Positions 1 through 33,623 of a DNA stretch of 64,000 nt are shown here, one piece after another. The stretch's first letter is position 1; each line of letters opens with the position of its first letter. The stretch is from an uncultured Tateyamaria sp. (GTDB lineage: Bacteria > Pseudomonadota > Alphaproteobacteria > Rhodobacterales > Rhodobacteraceae), in the NCBI RefSeq assembly GCF_947487805.1, contig NZ_CANKXW010000008.1, forward strand, positions 1-64,000, given 5' to 3'. The position numbers were made by a program, and so were the translations under genes. The notes below the pieces were generated by a model, which made no database searches, was not told where the DNA came from, and saw only the letters and a program-made list of their open reading frames with translations.

Positions 1-74
1 TGAAACCATCGTCCAGATGGACCAAAGGCCGATCATGCACTAACAATCAAATTGGACCACTCAAGTGGGGCTGA
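1..74. mobile_element. Putative terminus of an insertion sequence (family uncertain, possibly IS21-like) that interrupts the adjacent integrase
   Basis: The integrase ORF at 75-1022 loses homology-like sequence at this junction. The flank has two TGGACCA repeats (18-24, 53-59), resembling multiple terminal repeats of an IS end. Confidence 0.4.
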
Positions 75-1022
75 TCACTCGCTCATAGGACGTTGGAAAG
101 ATCGCAGGCTTGGAAACAGGTATCGCCCGTTGCCATTGATACGCCGGAGATCATCAAGCAATGCGAGTGCCTGCTTTGGAAGCGGAACGCTATGGGGGCG
201 ACGCATCTTCATTCGTTCCGCTGGGATCGTCCAAACCGCGTTGGCGAAGTCAATTTCGATCCATTCTGCGTGACGCAATTCCCCCGGGCGCTGGGCAAGC
301 AATGCCTGCAACTGCAAAGCAATGCGCGTCGTCACCTGCCCTTCAAAACCGTCAAGCGCGCGCAGCAATGCCCCCAGCGCAACTTTTTCGGTGATCGCCG
401 CACGGGATTTAGGCTTTGGGCGGATCAACGCATCGTGCAACGGCTGCGCTGGGTCGAACTCAGCTATGCCACTGGCCACAGCAAGCCGAAACACTGCGCT
501 GATCTTAGCGCGTAGCCTTTGTGCTGTTTCATAGTTTCCTTTTGCTTCGACCTTGCGAAGGCAATCCAAGATCATTGGCGACTTGATGTCCGTGATCGCC
601 ATCTTACCAAAGTCGGCCTTGGCCATGTCCAAGAGCCAAGAGTTTTTGGTTTGCGTGGCTTTTGCACGCCCTTCCTGCCGCCCTTTATCCAAGAAGGCAT
701 CAGCTATTTTTTCAAATGTATGTTCTGAAACGGCGCGACGTGCTTGCTTTTCCGCCCGTTTTGCTGCGCCCGGGTCTATCCCTTTGGCCAGCAGGGCCTT
801 GGCACTTTCACGGGCCTCTCTTGCATCCGCTAACGAAACAGCAGGATACGCACCGAAGGATAATCTCTTTTCACGTCCCTCAAAGCGGTATTTCAATCGC
901 CAGAGCCGGGACCCGGTCCGCGTCACCTCGATGTACAAGCCGCCAGAGTCGCTGACCTTGTAGGTCTTTTCCTTCGATTTGAGGTTCCGAAGTTTTGCAT
1001 CGTTCAAAGACATTGGGGGCAT
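75..1022 (-). pseudogene. P4/DUF4102-type tyrosine integrase, C-terminally truncated
   Basis: N-terminal DUF4102-like sequence (LSFGAYPAVSLADAREARESAKALLAKGIDP) and the first catalytic Arg region (LLAQRPGELRHAEW). The ORF stops at LFPSLRSFQRPMSE, before the HxxR/Tyr part of the catalytic domain. Confidence 0.85.
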
Positions 1023-1043
1023 CCTACAATCAACCTATCCGAA

Positions 1044-1077
1044 CATGCCCCCAATCATGCCCCCAAGATGGGGGCAT
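1044..1077. repeat. CATGCCCCC direct repeats plus inverted copy; putative integrase arm-type or operator sites
   Basis: CATGCCCCC at 1044-1052 and 1056-1064 and inverted ATGGGGGCAT at 1068-1077, between the integrase start and the att repeat. Confidence 0.5.
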
Positions 1078-1177
1078 TCGGCTGGACGATAGAGATCCAC
1101 ATCGGACAACCAGAAGCACAAAAGCCCTTTGTTATTGGGCTTTATCGTATGTAGTTGCTTACTTTCGGATGTTGAAG

Positions 1178-1222
1178 TGGTGCCCGGGGGCGGAATCGAA
1201 CCACCGACACGAGGATTTTCAA
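1178..1222. repeat. att site: 45-bp duplication of the tRNA-Phe 3' half
   Basis: TGGTGCCCGGGGGCGGAATCGAACCACCGACACGAGGATTTTCAA is identical to 33549-33593 and 17905-17949. Confidence 0.93.
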
Positions 1223-1336
1223 ACCGAAGCTTATTGATAAGGCCCAACAGGTTAGGTTCGGAAAACCTGTCAAACCCGCCACGACGCATCAAGCACTTAG
1301 CCGCGAATTGTCAAACCTTGACCCCGAGGCCATCCG

Positions 1337-2191
1337 ATGAGCTGGCGGGTGGCAAATGCTTGCGCCGAACGGAAGTTCGGGAGTGCGACGCGCAAGCAGA
1401 TCATCATGTTTCTGGCGGACAAGGCCTCGGATGATGGCTCGGGCATCTGGTGTTCCAAAGGAACGATCCAGCGGCACACCGAACTGGGCGAGACCACCGT
1501 CAAGCGCACGATCCGCGACTTCCTAAAGGAAGGCATCCTGGTCGAGACCGGCGCGCGCGGGTGCAAGAACGGATTCACGGTTGTCTACCGGATCGATCTG
1601 GCACGGATCGAGGCGCTGGAACTCACCGCAGAACCCGAGATTGAGACGGGGGCCACAGTGGACCCCGTCCAGACTGGACCCGGAACGGGGGCCACAGTGG
1701 CCGGGGTACCGGGGCCACCACGGCCCCCAAACCATCCTAAAACCATCCATAAACCTCCTACGCACGAGCGTGTGGTGGCGGAGGATGAAGAGGCTGAGAA
1801 GATATTGGCTGCGTATCCGCCCGACAGATTACGGGGCAAAGCGGTGTGCTTTGCCCAAATCGAAGACGCCGTGAAGGAAGGGATTGCACCGGAGGACTTG
1901 CTGAAAGCCGTCCAAGCCTACGCCACCGACAGCGCGGGATTCACCCGTTCCAAGGTCTGCTTTTCCGACAACTGGTTTCAGTCGAAGCGATGGCAGGCCT
2001 ATGTCGAGAGGCAGGCGGAAGACCGGGAGAAGGCGGCAGCGTTGCAGGCTGATCACCTTGCACGGCTGGCCTGCTGGATCAATGACCGCAGCCCGATGTG
2101 CAAGCACATCACGGCCCCGCAAGTCTCGGAATTACTCGCCTCAAAGCTGGTGACAGAGACGCAGATTCAAAGCGCAGGCCTCAGATCATGA
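1337..2191 (+). CDS. HTH-domain replication/initiator-like protein
   Basis: N-terminal winged-helix-like sequence (KQIIMFLADKASDDGSGIWCSKGTIQRHTELGETTVKRTIRDFLKEGIL), placed directly before mobC and the relaxase. Confidence 0.65.
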   Translation: MSWRVANACAERKFGSATRKQIIMFLADKASDDGSGIWCSKGTIQRHTELGETTVKRTIRDFLKEGILVETGARGCKNGFTVVYRIDLARIEALELTAEPEIETGATVDPVQTGPGTGATVAGVPGPPRPPNHPKTIHKPPTHERVVAEDEEAEKILAAYPPDRLRGKAVCFAQIEDAVKEGIAPEDLLKAVQAYATDSAGFTRSKVCFSDNWFQSKRWQAYVERQAEDREKAAALQADHLARLACWINDRSPMCKHITAPQVSELLASKLVTETQIQSAGLRS

Positions 2192-2661
2192 GCACCACCA
2201 GACCAACCGAAGCGCAAACAGCAAGGCGACCCATGTCATACGCTGGCGCTGCTGACACGGGACCTTGCGAGGGGCGGCACGCCTCCCCTTCGAACCCCAC
2301 CGGCGCGGGCAAAGCCCCCGCCAAAGAGCCGCTGACCGAGACCTTCGTCTTTCGCTGCACCGCGTCCGAGAAGGCCCAGTTGCGCGCCAAGGCAGAGGCC
2401 GCTGGACTGCCTGCTTCGACGGTCCTGCGCGAGGCGCTTGGCCTGACTGACGCGCGCCGCCGCAAGCCCATCCCCCGCGTTGATCCCGCGCTTGTGCTGG
2501 CTGTCGGGCGCATTGGCGGCAACCTCAACCAGATCGCGCGCTGGCTGAACCACGCCATGAAAGTTGGACGCACCGACCTCGACACGCTGACCGTCGCCCG
2601 CCGCCTCGTGGTGATCGAACGCCAGCTCGCCGCGCTCCTCGATGAGGCGCGGCGGTGCTGA
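2188..2661 (+). CDS. mobC: MobC-family relaxosome accessory protein
   Basis: RCTASEKAQLRAKAEAAGLPASTVLREALGL...RIGGNLNQIARWLN is a MobC signature. ATG at 2188 overlaps the upstream stop. Confidence 0.85.
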   Translation: MSTTRPTEAQTARRPMSYAGAADTGPCEGRHASPSNPTGAGKAPAKEPLTETFVFRCTASEKAQLRAKAEAAGLPASTVLREALGLTDARRRKPIPRVDPALVLAVGRIGGNLNQIARWLNHAMKVGRTDLDTLTVARRLVVIERQLAALLDEARRC

Positions 2662-4208
2662 TCAAGTTCTTTCCCAATGGCAAAGGCGCGGGCGCGGGGC
2701 CGGTCGGCTATCTCGTGGCCGAGCGCGTGCTGACCTACGATAGTAACCGCGACCTGATCCGCGATGCCGAAGGCCAGCCCGTGACCGTTAACCGCGACCC
2801 TCTGCCTGAGGTCCTGCGCGGGAACCCCGAGCGCACCGAGGCCCTGATTGACGCCAGCCGCCACCAATGGACCTACCGCGCGGGCGTGATCAGCTTTGCG
2901 GATAGCGATGATCCTTCCGAGGACCAGCAGGCCGAGGTCATGGACGGGTTCGAGCGGCTGGCCTTTGCGGGGCTGGACCCCGAGCAATATGAAGTGCTCT
3001 GGGTCCGCCATCGCCACGAAGGCCGGGTCGAGCTGCACTTCTGCACGCCGCGCCTTGAACTGACCACGGGAAAGAGCCTCAACATCGCGCCGCCGGGCTA
3101 CCAGGACGCCTATGACAGCCTGCGGGACGTCATGAACCGGCGTCATGGCTGGGCCGATCCGATGGATGTGGAGCGCGCGCAGGAGGTCCGCGACACCATT
3201 GAGACCCCGACACGCGCCCAAGGCCGGGACGAGCTGCACGCCTGGATACAGCACCAGATCGATATGGGCCTGATCACCAACCGCGCCACTATGGTCGACG
3301 CGCTCGCTGATGCGGGCTTCGACCTGCCGCGCACCGGCAAGGCCTACATCACCGCCCGCGATCCCGGCACCGGCGAGCGCTGGCGGCTGAAAGGAGAGAT
3401 TTTCCATGAAGACTGGCAAGCCGACCCGGCTGAGCGAGAAGCTGAACGCGGAGCTCGACACGATCCGGGCCGAGCACGTCGCCTCGATCTCATCCCAGCT
3501 CAAGAGCTTCAGGATCGATTTGAAGAACATTGTGGGCACCGCGCAGCATACCATCGCGAGCGATACGCGCAGCTTCCAGACCGAGACGGCGAGTTTGTTC
3601 GAGACACGGCTGAAATCGATCCGCCTCTGGCTGACGATCTCGCCTTGGCTGATCGCGGGGATGGTGTTGACGGGGATCGCCTTGATGATGGCCGCGAGCT
3701 TTTTCTGGACAGTGCATCTGACACGCTCGGAGCTGAACGAGATGGGCCTGACGCGGATCGAACGGCCCGAGGGGACGTGGCTGATCCTGGACCCGTTGAA
3801 GACGCGCCTGCGCACCTGCACGATGGGCGAGAGACACGTCACCTGCATTCGGATCGAGGAGAATTAGATGACCCAACTGACAGCCTTGGAACGCGACTTG
3901 CTCGCCTACGTCGAGCGGTTGGTGACGGCCTCCGAAGCCTCCGCGAAGGATTTGACCGCTTTGGAGACACGCTCGACCGGCAGGATCGAGAGGGAACTGG
4001 CTGGCTTGAAAGACTGCGTGACCTTGCTCATTCGTTCACAGACCGCATCCATGAAGGCCTTGAACGGATTGCTGAACGACGAGGCGAGCTACAAGACGCT
4101 GGACGAGAGCTTGCAGCAGAGCTTGACCTTAGCGAAAGCCGCCGCCGAGAGATTGAGGGACAGCTAGACAGCCAGGAAGCGCACGCGGAACGGGGGTTGC
4201 GGCATTGA
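2655..4208 (+). CDS. mobA: Relaxase/mobilization nuclease (HEN, ColE1-like MOBP5 type)
   Basis: N-terminal MLIKFFPNGKGAGAGPVGYL and RHEGRVELHFCTPRLELTTGKSLN, matching the (D/E)KGRxELNxxxPxxxLxxGK motif of HEN relaxases. Confidence 0.8.
   Translation: MLIKFFPNGKGAGAGPVGYLVAERVLTYDSNRDLIRDAEGQPVTVNRDPLPEVLRGNPERTEALIDASRHQWTYRAGVISFADSDDPSEDQQAEVMDGFERLAFAGLDPEQYEVLWVRHRHEGRVELHFCTPRLELTTGKSLNIAPPGYQDAYDSLRDVMNRRHGWADPMDVERAQEVRDTIETPTRAQGRDELHAWIQHQIDMGLITNRATMVDALADAGFDLPRTGKAYITARDPGTGERWRLKGEIFHEDWQADPAEREAERGARHDPGRARRLDLIPAQELQDRFEEHCGHRAAYHRERYAQLPDRDGEFVRDTAEIDPPLADDLALADRGDGVDGDRLDDGRELFLDSASDTLGAERDGPDADRTARGDVADPGPVEDAPAHLHDGRETRHLHSDRGELDDPTDSLGTRLARLRRAVGDGLRSLREGFDRFGDTLDRQDREGTGWLERLRDLAHSFTDRIHEGLERIAERRGELQDAGRELAAELDLSESRRREIEGQLDSQEAHAERGLRH
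3406..3867 (+). CDS. Small membrane protein nested out of frame in the relaxase gene (MbeB/MobB-like position)
   Basis: 153-aa ORF in a different frame from 2655-4208, with a predicted TM helix (LWLTISPWLIAGMVLTGIALMMAASFFWTV). Its stop abuts the next start (TAGATG). Confidence 0.65.
   Translation: MKTGKPTRLSEKLNAELDTIRAEHVASISSQLKSFRIDLKNIVGTAQHTIASDTRSFQTETASLFETRLKSIRLWLTISPWLIAGMVLTGIALMMAASFFWTVHLTRSELNEMGLTRIERPEGTWLILDPLKTRLRTCTMGERHVTCIRIEEN
3868..4167 (+). CDS. Small coiled-coil-like protein nested out of frame in the relaxase gene (MbeD-like position)
   Basis: 99-aa ORF starting immediately after 3406-3867, with heptad-rich helical sequence. Confidence 0.6.
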   Translation: MTQLTALERDLLAYVERLVTASEASAKDLTALETRSTGRIERELAGLKDCVTLLIRSQTASMKALNGLLNDEASYKTLDESLQQSLTLAKAAAERLRDS

Positions 4209-5945: not shown

Positions 5946-6236
5946 CTAAGTTGCAACAAGCGGTTCAATGTTCGAAACATCGATCTCCTTCGCCGCAAGC
6001 GCCATGTCGTGGTTCGTCTGCAAGTTCACCCAGTAGGCCGGGGTCGTATTGAACACACGAGCCAGGCGTAGTGCCGTGTCAGGTGTGATCCCGGTCGTGC
6101 CCTTGATCAACCGCTCGATCCGCGTCCGAGGCACACCCAGACGCCGCGCAAATGCGATGGCCCCCATCTCCAGGGGATCAAGGTAAAGCTCTTTCAGGAC
6201 TTCACCGGGGTGCATCGGGTCTTCAAGCAGGCTCAT
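5946..6236 (-). CDS. HigA-family addiction-module antitoxin-like protein
   Basis: MHPGEVLKELYLDPLEMGAIAFARRLGVPRTRIERLIKGTTGITPDTALRLARVFNTTPAYWVNLQTNHDM is a canonical HigA/VapI-like HTH. Confidence 0.88.
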   Translation of the reverse strand: MSLLEDPMHPGEVLKELYLDPLEMGAIAFARRLGVPRTRIERLIKGTTGITPDTALRLARVFNTTPAYWVNLQTNHDMALAAKEIDVSNIEPLVAT

Positions 6237-6250
6237 TGCCAGATACTTCC

Positions 6251-6838
6251 TCAGGCCGCGCCAGTTCGCGTTTCAGCGTTCATGCCATCGGCGTAGATGA
6301 ATTGCTTGGCATCCTCACGCACTTCGAGCGTCGCCCCATCAATCGCGCCAACGGCAAGGCCTGCGTTCACCCGCCGCGCAGGTTTCCCCGCACTCAGCCA
6401 CTTCCCCGCCTTGTCCACTGCAAAGCGCCCTTTGCGCGCTCCAGTGCCCTTGCCTTCAGCCGCGTCCATGATGACCAAAGCGACCTCTTCCATCCGAAAC
6501 AGCCCTCCCTGGCTGGCCGGGGGCATCTTGCGCTTTTGCAGGGATTGGCGCGAAACGTCCAACCGCTTGGCAACGTCGGCCAAGCTGACAAGGTCAGGCC
6601 GCACTTCCCGCAAAACCGAGCCCTCAGGCAATTGCTTTTGGATCGCACGCGCTGCATCCAGAATCGCATCTTCCGCGCGATGACTCGCCGCTTCCAGCGC
6701 AACGCCAAGCATGCCAGGCACGCCAGTACCGACGATGGCATCCTCGAAGCCAGCCTCGAAGACTGCGTCCACCAGATCGAACGCTTCATGTTCACCCTCA
6801 GGAAGGGCGAAGATCAGTTCAAACTCGATTTCTGCCAT
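6251..6838 (-). CDS. DNA-binding protein of a three-gene TA-like operon
   Basis: Acidic N-terminus (MAEIEFELIFALPEGEHEAFDLVDAVFEAGFEDAIVGTG) and a C-terminal HTH-like segment (SLADVAKRLDVSRQSLQKRKMPP). The start lies 1 bp after the upstream stop. Confidence 0.65.
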   Translation of the reverse strand: MAEIEFELIFALPEGEHEAFDLVDAVFEAGFEDAIVGTGVPGMLGVALEAASHRAEDAILDAARAIQKQLPEGSVLREVRPDLVSLADVAKRLDVSRQSLQKRKMPPASQGGLFRMEEVALVIMDAAEGKGTGARKGRFAVDKAGKWLSAGKPARRVNAGLAVGAIDGATLEVREDAKQFIYADGMNAETRTGAA

Positions 6839-6839
6839 A

Positions 6840-7118
6840 TTATTCATCCTCTTGCGGGCCATCGTTCGTGTCGTCGAGCTTGGTGCAACCAAGCGCCCGA
6901 CTTCTCAATTGCCGCGCGAAGCGGCCCGGATTTTGAGGCGTCGACCAGACGCCCATCTGACAAAACTCACCGCACCTACAGTCAGGATCGTTGTTCGGGC
7001 ATCGGATCAGGCCCCACGCATGTCCGCGCCCCGGACGTAAAGTGACGGTCCAACCCAGGGCCTCCAACTCGCGCAAGACCGCCTCAATCTCCTTGGACTT
7101 GTGCGGCTTTCTGGACAT
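6840..7118 (-). CDS. HicA-like small protein (candidate toxin)
   Basis: KEIEAVLRELEALGWTVTLRPGRGHAWGLIRCP resembles the HicA dsRBD-like fold with the GxHxx core. First gene after a 24-bp palindrome. Confidence 0.5.
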   Translation of the reverse strand: MSRKPHKSKEIEAVLRELEALGWTVTLRPGRGHAWGLIRCPNNDPDCRCGEFCQMGVWSTPQNPGRFARQLRSRALGCTKLDDTNDGPQEDE

Positions 7119-7135
7119 TAAATAGGCCTCTTTCT

Positions 7136-7159
7136 TTAAGTTGTCAATTGACAACTTAA
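7136..7159. promoter_or_regulatory. Perfect 24-bp palindrome, candidate operator
   Basis: TTAAGTTGTCAATTGACAACTTAA, 17 bp upstream of the start at 7118. Confidence 0.7.
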
Positions 7160-7182: not shown

Positions 7183-10100
7183 TTATGCCGCTTGCGGCAT
7201 CTCTCGAGCTAGGACTTCAGCTTGCTTCACGACCTTTTTCACCGCCTCTGACTGCAAGTCTGGTGGGAAGCCGTGCTTACGCAGGATGCGCTTGATAACA
7301 ACACGCATCTTGGTTCGCACATTTTGCTTTCGCCACCAATCGACGGACGAGGTGCTCTGCACAGCATTCACAAGTTCCTGCGCTATCACGCGCAGCTCTT
7401 CGTTGCCCATCAGCTGCACCGCACTGTCGTTCTGAGCCAGAGCATCGTAGAAAGCGACCTCTTCAGCGGAAAGCCCATCTTCAGGCTGCGACTGAAGTTC
7501 CTTGGCCATCTCGATCATTTCTTGGATCACTTGAATCGCATCGATACTTCGGTTGTGGTACCGCGCCATCGCATCTTGAAGACGTTTGGAAAACGCTTCG
7601 TTCTGGGCTTTGTTGGTTCGGGTCCGCGAACTGATTTCACCGTTCAGCAGCTTCTTCAGAGCCTCAACCGCGAGGTTCTTATGGGGACTATTTTGTAGTC
7701 CCATTAAGAAGTCCTCACTCAGCACACTGAGGTCCGGCGCGTCCACGCCCGCAGCTTCGAGAATGTCGATCACTTCGGTCGAAGCGACAGCCCGATTGAG
7801 CAACTGAGCGATTGCCAGTTCTGCCTCCTCGGCCGTCCTGGCCTTACTCGACGAAGCATCCATTTTTCGTATTGCGGCTTGAACTGCGATGAAAAAGCCA
7901 ACTTCGTCTTTGACCTCCCGAGCGTCCGACGTTCCAGAAGCAATCCTGAAAGCTTTGACCAAGCCCGCAACCGCAGTCATGAAACGCTTCTTTGAGGCTT
8001 CGCGATCCTTGGGCTCTTGACCATCAATTTTGAGTGTCAACGCATGTTCGATAGCCGTGGGAAGCAAGCGAATTCTGTCCGCGGCGCTTCCTTTGACTGC
8101 CTCCATGTACGGAATGCCATGGAACATCGATCTCATGACGTCCAACTGCGTTAGCAACGCGTGGGCGGCCTCGCCTTGGTCTACGCCTGTCTGCTTCTGG
8201 TCGGCGTTCGAATAGTGCTTAAGAGCCTTCTTAAGGTCTGCCGCAAGACCAATGTAGTCCACAACAAGCCCAGAAGGTTTGGCCCCAAACACGCGATTGA
8301 TGCGTGTGATGGCCTGCATAAGACCGTGCCCCTTCATTGGCTTGTCCACGTACAGGGTGTGCATACAAGGCGCATCGAACCCCGTTAGCCACATGTCTCG
8401 CACTATCACCAGCTTCAGACCGTCTGACGCATCACGGTATCGGGTTCCAAGAGTTTCCAGACGAGCTTTTGACCTAATATGCGGCTGGAAGTCAGCAGGG
8501 TCTTGCGCAGCTCCGGTCATGACAACCTTTACTGCACCTGCACCATCTTCGTCCGAATGCCAGTCAGGTCGCGCCTCAGCGATCCGCTTGTACACCTCTA
8601 CGCAGATACGGCGTGACATGCAGACAATCATAGCTTTGCCGCCGTCCATTGCCTCTAGGCGTGCATCAAAATGCTCCAAGATATCCGCAACAACTGCGTC
8701 AAGACGCTTCTCGGAGCCAACCAGTTTTTCGATTTGCGTCCACTTGGTCGTCATGGAGCCTTTGGCGTCTTCGTCGAAAACGCCTCCATCCGCTTCGGCG
8801 TCTTCGATGATCTCATCGAATTCTGCGTCGAGCAGATCGCCGGCTTCCTCGCTCATCTCAATCTTCGCGACCCGGCCTTCATAGTAGATGGGTACGGTTG
8901 CCCCATCGGCGACAGCCTGGGCGATATCATAGACATCGATGTAGTCACCGAAGACCGCCTGCGTGTCCGCACCAACAAGAGAAATAGGTGTCCCCGTGAA
9001 GCCGACATGAACAGCATTTGGCAACGCGGTCCGCATATGATGCGCAAAGCCGTATTTGGTCTCACCAGTCTCCCGGTTCAGTTTTGCATCAAAACCGTAC
9101 TGCGAACGGTGCGCCTCATCCGCAAAGACGATGACATTCGAGCGGTCGGTCAATAGTCCGAAATCTGTCTGCCCTTTCTCCGGTCGAAACTTTTGGATCG
9201 TGGCAAAGATCACGCCCCCTACCTTGCGATCACCTAGCTTTTTTCGAAGATCTGGAACGTCCTCTGCCTGTACGGGCATTTCACCGAACAAGGCTGAGCA
9301 TCGCGAAAACGTTGCAAACAACTGATTGTCCAGATCGTTGCGGTCCGTGATGATCACCAAAGTCGGGTTTTCTAGCCTGGGGTCTCGCATCAAGCGGCCA
9401 CCGAGAAAGGCCATCAGCAAGGACTTGCCGGAACCCTGCGTGTGCCACATCACGCCGCCACGCCCATCGTTTCCACGGGCGCGGGCGACTGCGGCAACGC
9501 CTTTGCGCACAGCATGAAACTGATGATAACCCGCGATCTTCTTGATGGGGCCTTTGCCTTCATCCTCAAAGACGGTGCAAAACCGCAGCATGTCCATAAT
9601 GACGACCGGATCGAGAAGACCTTGAATGAGCGTTTGCAAAGCTAGGGCTGAGCCATCCTCGACCAGCGTGTCTCCATCGACCGTGCGCCAACGCATGAAA
9701 CGATCATAATTTGCGGAGAGTGAACCGAACCGCGCAGTCACACCTTCTGAAATGACATTGAATGCGTTTGTCCGGAACAGATCCGGAACCTGCGTCTTGT
9801 AGGTTTCGATCTGGTTGTAGGCCCCCTTGAGACTTCCGCTCTCGGTTCCTTTCAACTCGACCACGACGAGAGGAAGGCCGTTGAGGAAAAGGATGATATC
9901 GGGACGTCGTGCTGTCTGACCAACCACCTCAAATTGATTGACCGCCAACCAATCATTCTCCCGGTTTTCCCAATCGACCAAGCGCGCGATATCTGACCGT
10001 TCCGTGCCGCCCTCGAACCACGAGACAGGGACACCGGCCACAAGCACCTCATGGATGCGTCGGTTTTCCGACATTAGATCCCCGGCAAATTCAGTGTCGC

Positions 10101-10323
10101 GCACCTTGTTGAGTGCGGCCCGGATCGCGTCATCCGGTAGGTCTGGGTTCAGCCGCCGCAGGCTTTCGTCAAGACGTCCAAGGAGCAGCACCTCGCGAAA
10201 ACTCTCCCGCGCGGGCGCTTCATTCTCAGGCGACAGCTCTGAGCCATGCAGATAGGCAAAGCCCAAGCCCTGCAACTCTTCCAGCGCCCATTGTTCGAGA
10301 TCGTCTTCGGAAGCGAAAGCCAT
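7183..10323 (-). CDS. hsdR: Type I restriction endonuclease subunit R
   Basis: 1046-aa ORF with [19 protein letters not shown] (nuclease), [15 protein letters not shown] (Walker A) and [12 protein letters not shown] (DEAH box). Confidence 0.97.
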
Positions 10324-11465
10324 CAGTCCACCTCCTCACCAAGCGACAGGTCAGGAATATCCAGACCATTCAGGCGTTCACCCAATACGTGTTCCAGTTT
10401 TTGGATATGCGAAGCCAACCAGCTCGCCATATCTGCCCAGGCGTCGCGGTTATATCCGTCAAACTCTTCCGAATAGACGATCAGGCTCTGCTTCTTGTCG
10501 TCCATCCGACGCCAGATCAATTCCGCCCCGAACTCAGCCTCAATCTGTTGTTTCTGTTCATACAACTGATCGAACAACCACTTGTTCTCCGCAGCATTCG
10601 CCCGCTCGAAACTCAACTGAACCCGCGCTTCCTTGCGCAGGAACACCAACTGAAATGGGCAAGACCGAACGCCAGAACCTGCACTCAACCAATGGCTTCT
10701 CGTTGGGCTGATGCTTCCGAAAAGCCCTGCACCATCTGCGCGCAGCTGATCCAGCGCCACCTCCCAGAAGTCGAGCCGCAACTTGTGACGCTTCTTCTGG
10801 GTGTCCTGAACCGCCTTCTCCTCGTTTTCCTTGCTCGACATCCCGATCATGAAATCCGCCGCTTCCGGCGTCGGGATGATCTGCTGGATGTCCACCATTA
10901 GCTCCTCGCCAAAGGAAAACGGCGTCACCTTGAAGCATTGCGCGCGAATGCCCCGGCTCAGAAGCCACAGCACCGTCGCCGTCACCTCACGCCGGAAATT
11001 GGCAGCGATAAAGATCATCCGCTGATCGTTGCCTGGGTTAAGGACGGTCTCCTCCAATTCCTCAACTTCCATGAACTCGCAAATCCGCACCGCCGCATTG
11101 CCGCCGCCCTCGTAGCGGTCGAGGTATTGCTGGTAGATGTCCACGATCTGCGTCTTGGTCAGGCCCGAGACATAGGCCGTGTATTTCAGCGCCTGCCAGG
11201 TCACATCCCGCCCGCTGTCATCGAGCTTGTTCTCGATCACAACCAGATTGCCGTCCTTGTCGAGCGCCAGAAGGTCCAGCCGCTCGCGCGTCTCGTCAAA
11301 CCCGTCGAACTCCTTCTGGATGATCAACAGCTCTTCCCCGAGCGCGTCGGGCTGGTTGGCCAACCATTCCTGCAAATGATCCCGCTCGCGCAGGTTCAGA
11401 TCAGCAAAGCGTTTCTGGACTAAGCGGGACAATCGGTTTTGGTTCAAATCAACGCGGAACATCAA
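10323..11465 (-). CDS. DUF4268/NucS-like domain protein in the R-M operon
   Basis: [40 protein letters not shown] is a nuclease-like core; the C-terminus resembles DUF4268. Confidence 0.75.
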
Positions 11466-12205
11466 TCACCTCTGAAATCGGAAAAATCTAAGATCGCGAC
11501 GCCAGCTAGGTCGCGCTGAAGAACATACTGCGACATGAAATCACGCTCGCGGATACGCTCGAAAACCTCACGTCTGTCCTGTGGCATTGAACGTTCCGCT
11601 CCACCAACATCAATGCCCAAGCCCGATTTGGCATCACATTTGCCAGAACTTGTGACCAGGCGATGCCACGGCTTCATATGCTTCTTGAGCTTGCTCAGAG
11701 CATTGGTTTTTTCCGCCTTAACTTTCTTGGCGCAGGCGACCGAGCAGCCCCAATAGCTTCGCCCGCGATAGGGATATTCGCCGCCGCCATGCAGTAGCTT
11801 GGAGTTTGAACCGTGGTCGTGGTTGAAGAAGACATATAGCGGGATGCAAGTCCCAGCATTCGCAATCAATTTGGCGGATTGGCCCGATGCCGGATCAAGG
11901 CCGCCATAGTCCGATCCTTTGCTGGAATGGTAGAGCCGCTTTGCCTGAACACGCAAACCCAGATCGCACCAAGGCGTGCGAACGATCCATTCCCAATCCG
12001 CGCCGTTGATGCCTTCCTCTGTCTTATTGAACATGGTCACGGTCAGTCCATGCTTGGCGTGATCGCGTGCCATGCGCAGCAAGAGCATTTCGGTGAGCGT
12101 CTCTTCCTGAAGGGCCAACCCACGTTTGAAAGCATGACCTTGCTCGTTCCAAACCCAAGCGGCTCGCCTGCGGAGATAGTCACGGAGAGTGATCGATGCA
12201 GCCAT
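11462..12205 (-). CDS. DUF6615-like protein, candidate PD-(D/E)XK enzyme
   Basis: LTEMLLLRMARDH...KTEEGINGADWEWIV...LGLRVQAKRLYH. The start ATG at 12205 overlaps the upstream stop (ATGA). Confidence 0.65.
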   Translation of the reverse strand: MAASITLRDYLRRRAAWVWNEQGHAFKRGLALQEETLTEMLLLRMARDHAKHGLTVTMFNKTEEGINGADWEWIVRTPWCDLGLRVQAKRLYHSSKGSDYGGLDPASGQSAKLIANAGTCIPLYVFFNHDHGSNSKLLHGGGEYPYRGRSYWGCSVACAKKVKAEKTNALSKLKKHMKPWHRLVTSSGKCDAKSGLGIDVGGAERSMPQDRREVFERIRERDFMSQYVLQRDLAGVAILDFSDFRGD

Positions 12206-12666
12206 CACCAAACCTCGAACCGATCCATGGATCGCTTGCTCGCCGCCTCTGTCACAACCTGCCGCACGACCGCGCAGATGTCGTCGTCGCTGCGGGCGGG
12301 CATGTGGTCCTGGTCTTCGCAAACGCCGCAGCTGATCAGGACGGCTTCGGAATGGGGGAGTTCAGAGACCGTTCCGGCGACCATGCTGTCGAGGGTTTCT
12401 TCGAAACCATCGGAGAGCATGCCAGTGTCGCTATCGTATTTCTCTTGGTACCAGCACCACTCGTCCCAAACGGTTTTGAGCGGCTCTGCCGTGTCTTCAA
12501 ACATGCCTACGGCGGGCATCCGTTGCAGGCGGATGATGACGCGTTTGGCGAGCGCCTCGATGCGCTCGGCGGCAAAGACTTGGATGGGGTGGAAATAGTC
12601 CACCTCCGGGCCCGCCTCGGCCATCAGGAACGGGGCGGAGACGTCATAGGGTTTCGGTGCACTCAT
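12205..12666 (-). CDS. Hypothetical protein in the R-M operon
   Basis: 153-aa ORF overlapping both neighbours by 1-4 bp, same strand. Confidence 0.7.
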   Translation of the reverse strand: MSAPKPYDVSAPFLMAEAGPEVDYFHPIQVFAAERIEALAKRVIIRLQRMPAVGMFEDTAEPLKTVWDEWCWYQEKYDSDTGMLSDGFEETLDSMVAGTVSELPHSEAVLISCGVCEDQDHMPARSDDDICAVVRQVVTEAASKRSMDRFEVW

Positions 12667-13901
12667 AACATCGCCTCCACTTCCGCCTCAGCGGCTTTGA
12701 CGCGCAGGGTGCCGGACATGAGGCGGGGCAGCAGGGTGTCGCGGAGGGTGGCGAGGGTTTGGTTTTCCTTCGTTAGCTCAAGAACCTTTCGAAACATCGG
12801 ATCGACGATGCTTTCGAACGCAGCAGATACAGAACGAGGCGGCGAAACGACCGTGGCAGCTTGGAGTGTCTTGGTTGTTATGGTGTCAAAAACAGAACCA
12901 TGCGCTGCAAGCGTTATGCCCAATATTTCCGTCATGAACATGCAATTTGCGAAGAATGGTTTGCCCTCTCTGGAATTCAACGCATAGCAAGTTTGGTTCA
13001 TCGCGATCTGCTCTCCAAACATGCACGCACGGCCAGTGGTTGCGCCACGCGCGACAACAACTGTGGCGTACTTTGGGATCAGTTTCGTACTGCTCTTGGA
13101 CAGCCCCAGCTCGGTAATTCTGCGCTCTGTGGAAATCAAAAACGCTTGGCCGCATTGGCTTACATCTTTGGCGCTAGCCCATGGAATATAGCCGTCCCAA
13201 TAGTCCTCGATCGAAGTTTTTGGCGTCCCACCGGAGATAAGCTCTACGACCTCCAAAAGAGCTTTTTCTCCCCACCCCTCCGGCAGGCCGTTTTCGCCGA
13301 AGCGGTCGGGGAAGAGAGCGGCGGTTTCGGGGGCCATGTGGGCGGGGGGACGGTTTTGGGATTTGGCGTGGACGGGGTCGAACGTGACGAACCACGACCG
13401 ATAGAGCGCCCGCGCCATCTCTTCCAGGCAGGCCGAGGCCTTCCGGTTCGCCTCGATCTTGTCATCCAGCGCCCCCAATATCCCCGCAATCTCGCGTTGT
13501 TCTGGAAGTGGTGGCAAGACCACTGCTTCTTGGTGAGCATCGTTTCGGTTAACGCCAGGAACACCGCTCTTGTCGTTGAATTTTTCCCAATCCAAGGTCT
13601 GCAGAAAGTAGTAGCAAAACTTCGGATCATTCCCTTTGAAATCGCGGACGTACAGCGCAGTGTTCAAAGGCCAAAAGTCACTTTCAGAGAAGAAAACTTG
13701 GCCGATCGTTCCATAGCGACCTGTTATTACACCCGGCCCATTGACCTTTGCCTCTGAGTGAAGATCAGTTGGTCCAGACGAAGAAATTATTGGGACATCG
13801 CCGGGCTTGCGCTTGGCATGCGGCAAGTCATAACCACGTTTCAGCTCCAGCACGTCGCCCAGTTCAACGTCGGCCCAGCTCACACCAAGCCCCCCAACCA
13901 C
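12663..13901 (-). CDS. hsdS: Type I restriction specificity subunit S
   Basis: Two target-recognition-like halves separated by LPPLPEQREIAGILGALDDKIEANRKASACLEEMARALYRSWF. Confidence 0.95.
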   Translation of the reverse strand: MVGGLGVSWADVELGDVLELKRGYDLPHAKRKPGDVPIISSSGPTDLHSEAKVNGPGVITGRYGTIGQVFFSESDFWPLNTALYVRDFKGNDPKFCYYFLQTLDWEKFNDKSGVPGVNRNDAHQEAVVLPPLPEQREIAGILGALDDKIEANRKASACLEEMARALYRSWFVTFDPVHAKSQNRPPAHMAPETAALFPDRFGENGLPEGWGEKALLEVVELISGGTPKTSIEDYWDGYIPWASAKDVSQCGQAFLISTERRITELGLSKSSTKLIPKYATVVVARGATTGRACMFGEQIAMNQTCYALNSREGKPFFANCMFMTEILGITLAAHGSVFDTITTKTLQAATVVSPPRSVSAAFESIVDPMFRKVLELTKENQTLATLRDTLLPRLMSGTLRVKAAEAEVEAML

Positions 13902-15406
13902 GCCTCGATCTCGGTCTCCAGCCGTCGGCCTTCCTCGAAATGCCCCTGCAACTCGGCCCGCAGCCGCGTAAATTTTTCCTCAAACGGCTCGTCGTCCTCT
14001 TCCACCGCGCCCGCGCCCACGTAGCGGCCCGGGGTCAGCACGTAGTTGTGCTTGGCAATCTCCTCGACCTTCACGCTTGCGCAGAAGCCCGGCTCGTCTG
14101 CGTAAGGCCCCTCTGCCTCCTCCCCCCGCCAGGCATGGTAGGTGGTGGCGATCTTGGCGATCTCGTCCTCTGACAGTTCCTTTTGCTTGCGCGACCCTGC
14201 GATCAGCGCGCCCATCTTGCGGGCGTCGATGAACAGCACCTCGCCGCGCCGGTCGCGAAGCGTGCCGCCCGCCGCCGTGCCGTTGGATTTGTCCTTTGCC
14301 AGAAACCACAGGCAGGCGGGGATCTGTGTGCCAAAGAACAACTGTCCCGGCAGCGCCACCATGCAATCCACCGCGTCCTGTTCGACCATCGCCTTTCGAA
14401 TGTCGCCCTCGCCCGATTGCATGGACGACATCGACCCGTTAGCCATGACCACCCCTCCAATGCCGTTGGCGCTGAGGTGGTGGTGGATATGGGACATCCA
14501 AGCAAAGTTCGCATTGCCCGTCGGCGGCGTGCCATAGCGCCAGCGCGTGTCCTCGCGTAGCGCCTCGCCGTTCCAGTCCGAGATGTTGAAAGGCGGGTTG
14601 GCGAGGATAAAGTCAAACCGTTCATCCGGGAAGGCGTTGCGGGTCAGCGTGCCCTCCTGGTTCCAGCGCAGATCGCCAAAGATGCCCCGGATGGCAAGGT
14701 TCATGCGGGCGAGGCGAAAGGTCGTGTGGTTGCGTTCTTGCCCATAGACCGCGATGTCATCGACCCGGCCTTGGTGGGCGGCGATGAATTTCTCGGACTG
14801 GACGAAGAAGCCTCCGGTGCCGCAGCAGGGGTCATAGACGCGGCCATGGGTCGGCTCCATCATCTCAACCATGACCGAGACGATAGATTTAGGCGTATAG
14901 AACTCCCCGCCGCGCTTGCCCTCGGACGAGGCGAATTCCCCAATGAAGTATTCGTAGATGCGCCCGATCAGGTCGAAGTCGGATTTGGTACCGTGCAGTT
15001 CGAGGTTGGTGAACATCTCGATCAGGCCGGTGACGATGGCCCGGTCGAGGTTGGCGCGGCCAAAGACCTTTGGCAGCGCGTCTTGCAGCGAGGGGTTCGA
15101 TTTCTCAATCTCGCGCATGGCGTCGTCCACCTGCACGCCTATGTCGTTTGCTTTGGCATTGGCGGCGAGCCGATCCCAGCGGGCTTTTTCGGGCACCCAG
15201 AAGATGTTTTCGGCCTCGTATTCTTCGGGGTCTTCGAGGTCGATGTATTCATCCTTGGCGAATTCGGCCCGCTTGGCTTCGAACGCGGCAGAGACATAAC
15301 GGAGGAAGAGAAGGCCCAGGGCAACGTGTTTGTATTCGCCCGCGTCCATCGCCCCGCGCATCTTGTCAGCGGCGGCGAAGAGGGTCTTTTCAATGCGTTC
15401 TGCCAT
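13880..15406 (-). CDS. hsdM: Type I DNA methyltransferase subunit M
   Basis: VYDPCCGTGGFF and DFILANPPFN (N-6 adenine methylase motifs I and IV). Confidence 0.97.
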   Translation of the reverse strand: MAERIEKTLFAAADKMRGAMDAGEYKHVALGLLFLRYVSAAFEAKRAEFAKDEYIDLEDPEEYEAENIFWVPEKARWDRLAANAKANDIGVQVDDAMREIEKSNPSLQDALPKVFGRANLDRAIVTGLIEMFTNLELHGTKSDFDLIGRIYEYFIGEFASSEGKRGGEFYTPKSIVSVMVEMMEPTHGRVYDPCCGTGGFFVQSEKFIAAHQGRVDDIAVYGQERNHTTFRLARMNLAIRGIFGDLRWNQEGTLTRNAFPDERFDFILANPPFNISDWNGEALREDTRWRYGTPPTGNANFAWMSHIHHHLSANGIGGVVMANGSMSSMQSGEGDIRKAMVEQDAVDCMVALPGQLFFGTQIPACLWFLAKDKSNGTAAGGTLRDRRGEVLFIDARKMGALIAGSRKQKELSEDEIAKIATTYHAWRGEEAEGPYADEPGFCASVKVEEIAKHNYVLTPGRYVGAGAVEEDDEPFEEKFTRLRAELQGHFEEGRRLETEIEAWLGGLV

Positions 15407-33548: not shown

Positions 33549-33623
33549 TGGTGCCCGGGGGCGGAATCGAACCACCGACACGAGGATTTTCAATCCACTG
33601 CTCTACCCCTGAGCTACCCGGGC
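33549..33623 (-). tRNA. tRNA-Phe(GAA)
   Basis: Reverse complement GCCCGGGTAGCTCAGGGGTAGAGCAGTGGATTGAAAATCCTCGTGTCGGTGGTTCGATTCCGCCCCCGGGCACCA: full cloverleaf, anticodon GAA, encoded CCA. Confidence 0.98.

Follow-up and report, generated by a model that had tools for sequence, protein, structure and literature searches.

A widespread two-gene, HicAB-like candidate toxin-antitoxin module with a non-HicB partner and a palindromic operator in an uncultured Tateyamaria sp.

Organization of the locus

The window analysed here comprises 64,000 nucleotides of contig NZ_CANKXW010000008.1 (positions 1 to 64,000) of an uncultured Tateyamaria sp. It carries three minus-strand genes, named A, B and higA in this study, and a palindrome upstream of the first of them. 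The features are the following:

6840..7118, minus strand: gene A, HicA-like candidate toxin of 92 aa, PADLOC PDC-M06A
6251..6838, minus strand: gene B, candidate antitoxin/autorepressor of 195 aa from ATG, PDC-M06B
5946..6236, minus strand: higA, 96 aa, orphan HigA antitoxin gene, accessory and outside the conserved module
7136..7159, no strand: perfect 24-bp palindromic operator (on comparative grounds), with the family core TTGTC-N4-GACAA at 7141-7154
7142..7147, minus strand: TTGACA, -35-like hexamer within the right half of the operator
7119..7124, minus strand: TATTTA, possible weak -10 hexamer, 17 bp from TTGACA

A gap of 1 bp separates genes A and B, and one of 14 bp separates B from higA. 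Between the palindrome and the ATG of A there are 17 bp; on the other side, the stop codon of hsdR (7183), a gene whose identity was upheld by Pfam, precedes it by 23 bp. The tight packing of the genes, their coordinates and the perfect palindrome in this position are as given in the first-pass annotation of the window, which read the three genes as a hybrid or three-component toxin-antitoxin system.

Within the window no perfect palindrome is longer than TTAAGTTGTCAATTGACAACTTAA (7136-7159), the runner-up measuring 16 bp, and the naive expectation for such a palindrome is about 0.004 (64000/4^12). With up to three mismatches allowed, the 24-mer occurs once in the window (0 in shuffles) and once in the 4.14-Mb genome. 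The motif GTTGTC-N4-GACAAC is also found once in the genome and is the only class-1 site there (classes are described below). The spacer ends in TT (NNTT) in 91 of the 96 distinct class-1 sites, and this creates the TTGACA -35 box within the operator. A sigma-70 consensus scan of the window gave no plain promoter; for this reason, and because it abuts the ATG, TATTTA is regarded as a weak -10 box.

Products of genes A and B

The gene A product has no match in Pfam or NCBIfam, and the HicA family PF07927 was matched by only 1 of 49 A-family members (E 0.21) and not by the A of the window. It matches PADLOC model PDLC04383 with an E-value of 2.9e-29. Its AlphaFold2 model, built from 49 alignment rows and of mediocre pLDDT (73.6), displays an alpha-beta-beta-beta-alpha order with the predicted strand order of HicA, and at this level of predicted fold order the earlier suggestion that the first gene resembles HicA is borne out. 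When the model was searched with VIA-align, HicA chains ranked 1, 3 and 6 with low Z scores of 4.3, 4.2 and 3.9, covering 58/58, 59/60 and 54/57 HicA residues at an rmsd of 2.9-3.5; the unrelated proteins T7 gp1.2 and PafA tied with HicA in Z among these matches, and Foldseek returned no HicA within its top 50. Profile matches of A to PDB sequences included none that was convincing.

Comparison of the A alignment with three HicA sets by hhalign gave weak matches (E 0.001, 0.011 and 0.031), those at 0.001 and 0.031 placing H33 of A on the conserved HicA histidine (GSH). In a control with the first HicA set, 40 column-shuffled alignments scored at most 16.5 versus 22.2 for the real one (21.1 when the A alignment, A3, was put in the control script's own format). 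H33 is kept in 48 of the 49 members. The protein also has a Cys-rich loop, not seen in the aligned HicA rows, in which C40 and C78 are present in 49/49 and C53 in 46/49 members. The invariance of H6, K9, E10, I11 and A13 is partly by construction, since the A-seeded scans used the motif H-x-x-K-E-I.

For gene B, Pfam and NCBIfam gave weak helix-turn-helix matches only and no HicB, while PADLOC model PDLC04388 was matched at E 3.7e-24. The B model (pLDDT 90.1) consists of a ferredoxin-like domain (residues 1-81), a helix-turn-helix (about 84-128) and a helical C-terminus. Structural matches of the ferredoxin-like domain were generic (best Z 6.8), with ACT domains among them and PII proteins in a second search. 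Of 48 B members, 17 matched Phage_AlpA with E-values no higher than 1, the best being 0.00027. The HicB family was absent from the matches listed for these 48 members (25 of 36 families), and HicB-type folds from the structural matches listed for B, which in itself excludes nothing. As had been proposed for the second gene, B is a DNA-binding type of protein unlike HicB: it is not HicB, and it combines a ferredoxin-like domain with an AlpA-like helix-turn-helix.

Conservation and distribution of the A-B pair

The starting loci were the best 80 of 162 genome loci and 11 viral loci from the A-seeded scans, to which 8 plasmid loci (out of 19 and 15 plasmid records) and genome samples were added. 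A is carried by 142 loci, of which 119 are distinct by A plus 60 bp upstream; fragments L121 and L122 gave no A. B accompanies A at 117 of the 119 distinct loci, in proteobacteria, cyanobacteria, plasmids and phages, and is missing at L101 and L145 only. The distance between the two genes is -60 to 150 bp at 115/119 loci and 164 bp in L144. In L047 (4995-5816) A and B share a single open reading frame, which is either a natural fusion or possibly a sequencing slip, and which gives the only hint that B might neutralize A through binding. Judged by sequence comparison, A and B are one conserved two-gene unit. Across these loci the pair forms a two-gene operon behind an operator of its own, a trait of type II toxin-antitoxin systems.

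The distribution of the pair is sporadic. It was present in 20 of 390 genomes of the order to which the window belongs, and among the genomes listed from the window's own genus it was found in 0/8 others. It was present in 24/398 genomes of the phylum, 12/385 of the class and 78/392 sampled from the gammaproteobacterial family of G713 (class name inferred from Escherichia homologues); these order, phylum, class and family draws overlap. In Escherichia coli the B part was matched in 110 of 5426 genomes, over 41% of the query and at about 68% identity. Every match was on a plasmid; the plasmids measure about 107-218 kb among the matches listed (ten rows), and the plasmid region L234 carries both A and B. 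When a class-1 pair served as query, E. coli gave no match.

Operator classes follow the recognition helix of B

Two palindromic cores were found upstream of A. The class-1 core TTGTC-N4-GACAA occurs without mismatch at 96/119 loci, where shuffled upstream regions would be expected to give 0.008, and the class-2 core GTTGAC-N4-GTHAAC at 11/119 (0.004 expected). Both are linked to the helix of B. Within this first set, the helix RQ[SANY][LMIV][RQHA][KQ] goes with a class-1 operator (at most one mismatch) in 98 of 100 cases, L135 and L140 having class-1 helices without such an operator, and the helix [RK][QA]A[IV] goes with a class-2 operator in 11/11.

The helix classes were defined after these 119 loci had been seen, and only the test on new loci is prospective. 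The helix-operator rule was fixed in writing before the new loci were fetched, at a time when L157-L192 had been located but their sequence was still unread. Seventy-six loci were fetched, two of which (L186 and L188) were already in the first set, leaving 74. Class-1 operators were found with at most one mismatch at 31/31 loci (28 perfect), and a perfect class-2 site at 38 of 39, L229 having one mismatch. The rule was correct at 69 of the 70 classifiable loci; the strict script tally is 68/70 (class 2 = 37 + 1 + 1), L209 being scored as class 1 by the script because a one-mismatch class-1 site is also present. Three new loci with a helix outside both rules carry a class-2 site and L195 neither site. 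The class-2 site is also present at the pair of the phage-plasmid Escherichia phage Cyrano and at an E. coli plasmid pair. The operator class changes only twice on the A tree (83 columns, weakly resolved), and the helix-operator agreements are therefore largely inherited and reflect long conservation rather more than separate switches. On comparative grounds the palindrome is the operator of the family, the site that matches the recognition helix of B, and its role as operator of this operon, expected from its position by the first-pass annotation, gains support from this helix-linked site upstream of A across loci.

Other palindromes were seen near some pairs. At L006, L093, L094 and L195, and at L097-L100, the B helices read KATLSRYS and KGTLDHYA, with GGTTAC-N4-GTTACC and TGTAGA...TCTACA nearby, respectively; these loci possibly represent further operator classes. 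At L052, L053, L055, L058, L066 and L071 the operator arms, which lie about 40-90 bp ahead of A, are perfect for up to 20 bp each, and their outer sequence varies by locus. Pairing of the outer arms was in excess in 29 distinct non-Rhodobacterales class-1 operators (136 versus 77.8 expected, 0/20000 shuffles) and weakly so in 34 class-2 operators (108 versus 90.5, z 2.4). There was no excess in 14 Rhodobacterales-type class-1 operators (z -1.1), nor was the excess replicated in 23 held-out class-1 operators (68 versus 63.6, z 0.7). The test on these 23 and the 34 class-2 operators retained L186 and L188 from the first set. A selected hairpin in the arms was dropped on account of this held-out failure, and the excess is regarded as a lineage-limited oddity.

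Genomic neighbourhood

A type I restriction operon (window 7183-15406) lies directly ahead of the pair. Additional open reading frames are present between its hsdR and hsdS, one of them with DUF4268 (10323-11465). In close relatives the genes flanking A and B differ while far genes of the element recur, the pattern that a cargo site within a mobile element would produce. An open reading frame of 517-518 aa (window 2655-4208), relaxase-like by eye, recurs beside the pair in L011, L014, L015, L018, L019 and L022, with differing cargo in between. We read window 1-4208 and these six loci as a mobile element with a slot in which defence-type cargo is swapped. Type I HsdR was matched near the pair in L012, L014, L015 and L022, and other restriction or methylase neighbours were read by eye. 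The GC content shifts from about 0.54 to 0.60-0.65 at a tRNA-Phe gene (33549-33623), which probably marks an island boundary.

A scan of 103 neighbour proteins, hand-picked from the 153 nearest and a few second neighbours with near-copies removed, and made with no control set and no per-locus counts, gave a mixed picture: no Type I restriction model was matched by more than 4 of them, next to 5 integrases and 4 TrbL. Since the scanned neighbours are mixed, a restriction-linked module is not claimed.

Proposed function of the pair and alternative explanations

The pair shares with HicAB the toxin-first gene order, a small candidate toxin of predicted alpha-beta-beta-beta-alpha order with a conserved His that weak alignments place at the HicA position, a two-domain partner with a DNA-binding part, and an upstream operator. 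It differs in that A falls outside PF07927 and has the extra Cys-rich loop and a WSTP motif, and in the make-up of B, with its ferredoxin-like and AlpA-like parts and no HicB match. It is fairly probable that A and B constitute an autoregulated HicAB-like type II toxin-antitoxin pair with a non-HicB antitoxin, to which HigA is a passenger. A dimer of B would bind the palindrome with its 4-bp spacing, as the comparison across loci strongly suggests; it would cover the -35 box, so that the operon would be repressed, and would hold A inactive. A would be a HicA-like ribonuclease with a double-stranded-RNA-binding fold that cuts RNA, and may be freed once B has disappeared or been titrated, as might happen upon loss of the mobile element or phage infection. 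In HicAB of Sinorhizobium meliloti, one domain of the partner is reported to inhibit HicA and the other to bind the operator (PMC6327479); by analogy, the two-domain build of B is compatible with such a division of tasks.

The toxin-antitoxin label is not new, since the homologous pair CYRAN_51/CYRAN_50 of Escherichia phage Cyrano is already annotated as HicA/HicB and counted among the toxins of that phage (PMC9928086). That pair shares the class-2 operator, whereas its HicA/HicB assignment is by annotation only and its A is 33% identical over 69 residues. Neither a family-wide operator with helix-linked classes nor the non-HicB build of B was found in literature searches.

A second explanation, tentative but with a real claim to attention, is that the pair is a dedicated phage-defence (abortive-infection) module, the PADLOC candidate PDC-M06, and not an addiction module. 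Both proteins carry PADLOC names and match the two models of this candidate as adjacent genes; the type I restriction operon directly ahead, the restriction genes and methylases beside the pair in close relatives, and the homologues in a phage-plasmid and viral contigs point the same way. The neighbours scanned, however, are mixed and lack a control set, and PDC-M06 is a candidate only and carries no mechanism. In a Bacillus cereus survey the PDC sets of Payne et al. 2021 are referred to as unpublished candidates (PMC11811056), and two other PDCs are reported to have given no defence when tested (PMC12409345). A full-text literature search of main texts found no description of PDC-M06.

It is rather unlikely that A is no toxin at all, being a co-factor of B or a partner that, like Shi, needs another protein for plasmid or element control. 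The Cys-rich loop speaks for this reading, as does the case of Shi itself (ICEclc alpA-parA-shi-parB), described as a HicA-derived small protein, harmless alone, from a mobile element that also carries an AlpA gene (PMC6812849). By analogy, Shi warns that HicA-derived proteins can have other jobs. Shi is described, however, as acting with ParA, and the comparison with it is one of descriptions; no ParA or ParB gene was seen in the pair, whose gene order and operator are HicAB-like. A similarly doubtful proposal is that the pair represents a distinct toxin-antitoxin family, with an ACT/PII-like sensory domain joined to an AlpA-type head, in which a small molecule or phage signal, once bound by the ferredoxin-like domain of B, would free a HicA-type nuclease and helix and operator would change together. 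If true, helix and operator changing in step would amount to a readable repressor-operator code.

The third gene

The third gene had been called a canonical HigA without HigB, and this description holds: the protein scores 94.6 bits with TIGR02607 (cut-off 47.7), and the HigB family PF05015 was not found in its own genome; 4 of 14 control genomes were positive. No HicA family member was found in this genome either, and one ParE/RelE-type toxin gene lies on another contig. The locus thus shares with HigBA a canonical HigA gene, but HigB is missing and HigA follows another pair.

HigA follows B at 5/119 distinct loci (the window, L011, L012, L014 and L113), with a gap of 14 bp at four of them, and at 0/74 of the later loci. 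The gene is intact at all five. Its dN/dS over the shared 81 codons (window, L011, L012, L014 and L022; L113 excluded) is 0.08-0.31, which rules out a decayed pseudogene; A and B gave 0.04-0.19 and 0.07-0.11, respectively. A role of HigA in shaping the operator was also ruled out, as arm length and operator form are independent of its presence. Being intact, under purifying selection and yet absent at most loci, HigA is maintained by selection yet optional, and it may still act in its small clade.

That HigA is an extra regulator or second antitoxin for A in a three-component system, for which its shared position at the five loci, the selection on its 81-codon core and the lack of HigB in the genome could be invoked, is very improbable, because it is missing at 114/119 and 74/74 loci, because L015, with 88% DNA identity over A-B, stops at the stop codon of B without HigA, and because the form of the operator does not vary with its presence. 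The hybrid or three-component reading is not upheld on conservation, the search for the triad across genomes having found a complete two-gene module without a conserved third gene. On the best explanation, HigA is a local passenger of rare occurrence; it would be co-transcribed in a single small clade and would not be a component of the module.

Significance

The absence of the third gene elsewhere clears away a misleading three-part reading, and a widespread pair without a Pfam or NCBIfam model now has a concrete, testable mechanism. The natural variants of helix and operator offer a ready set for studying how specificity changes in antitoxin repressors.
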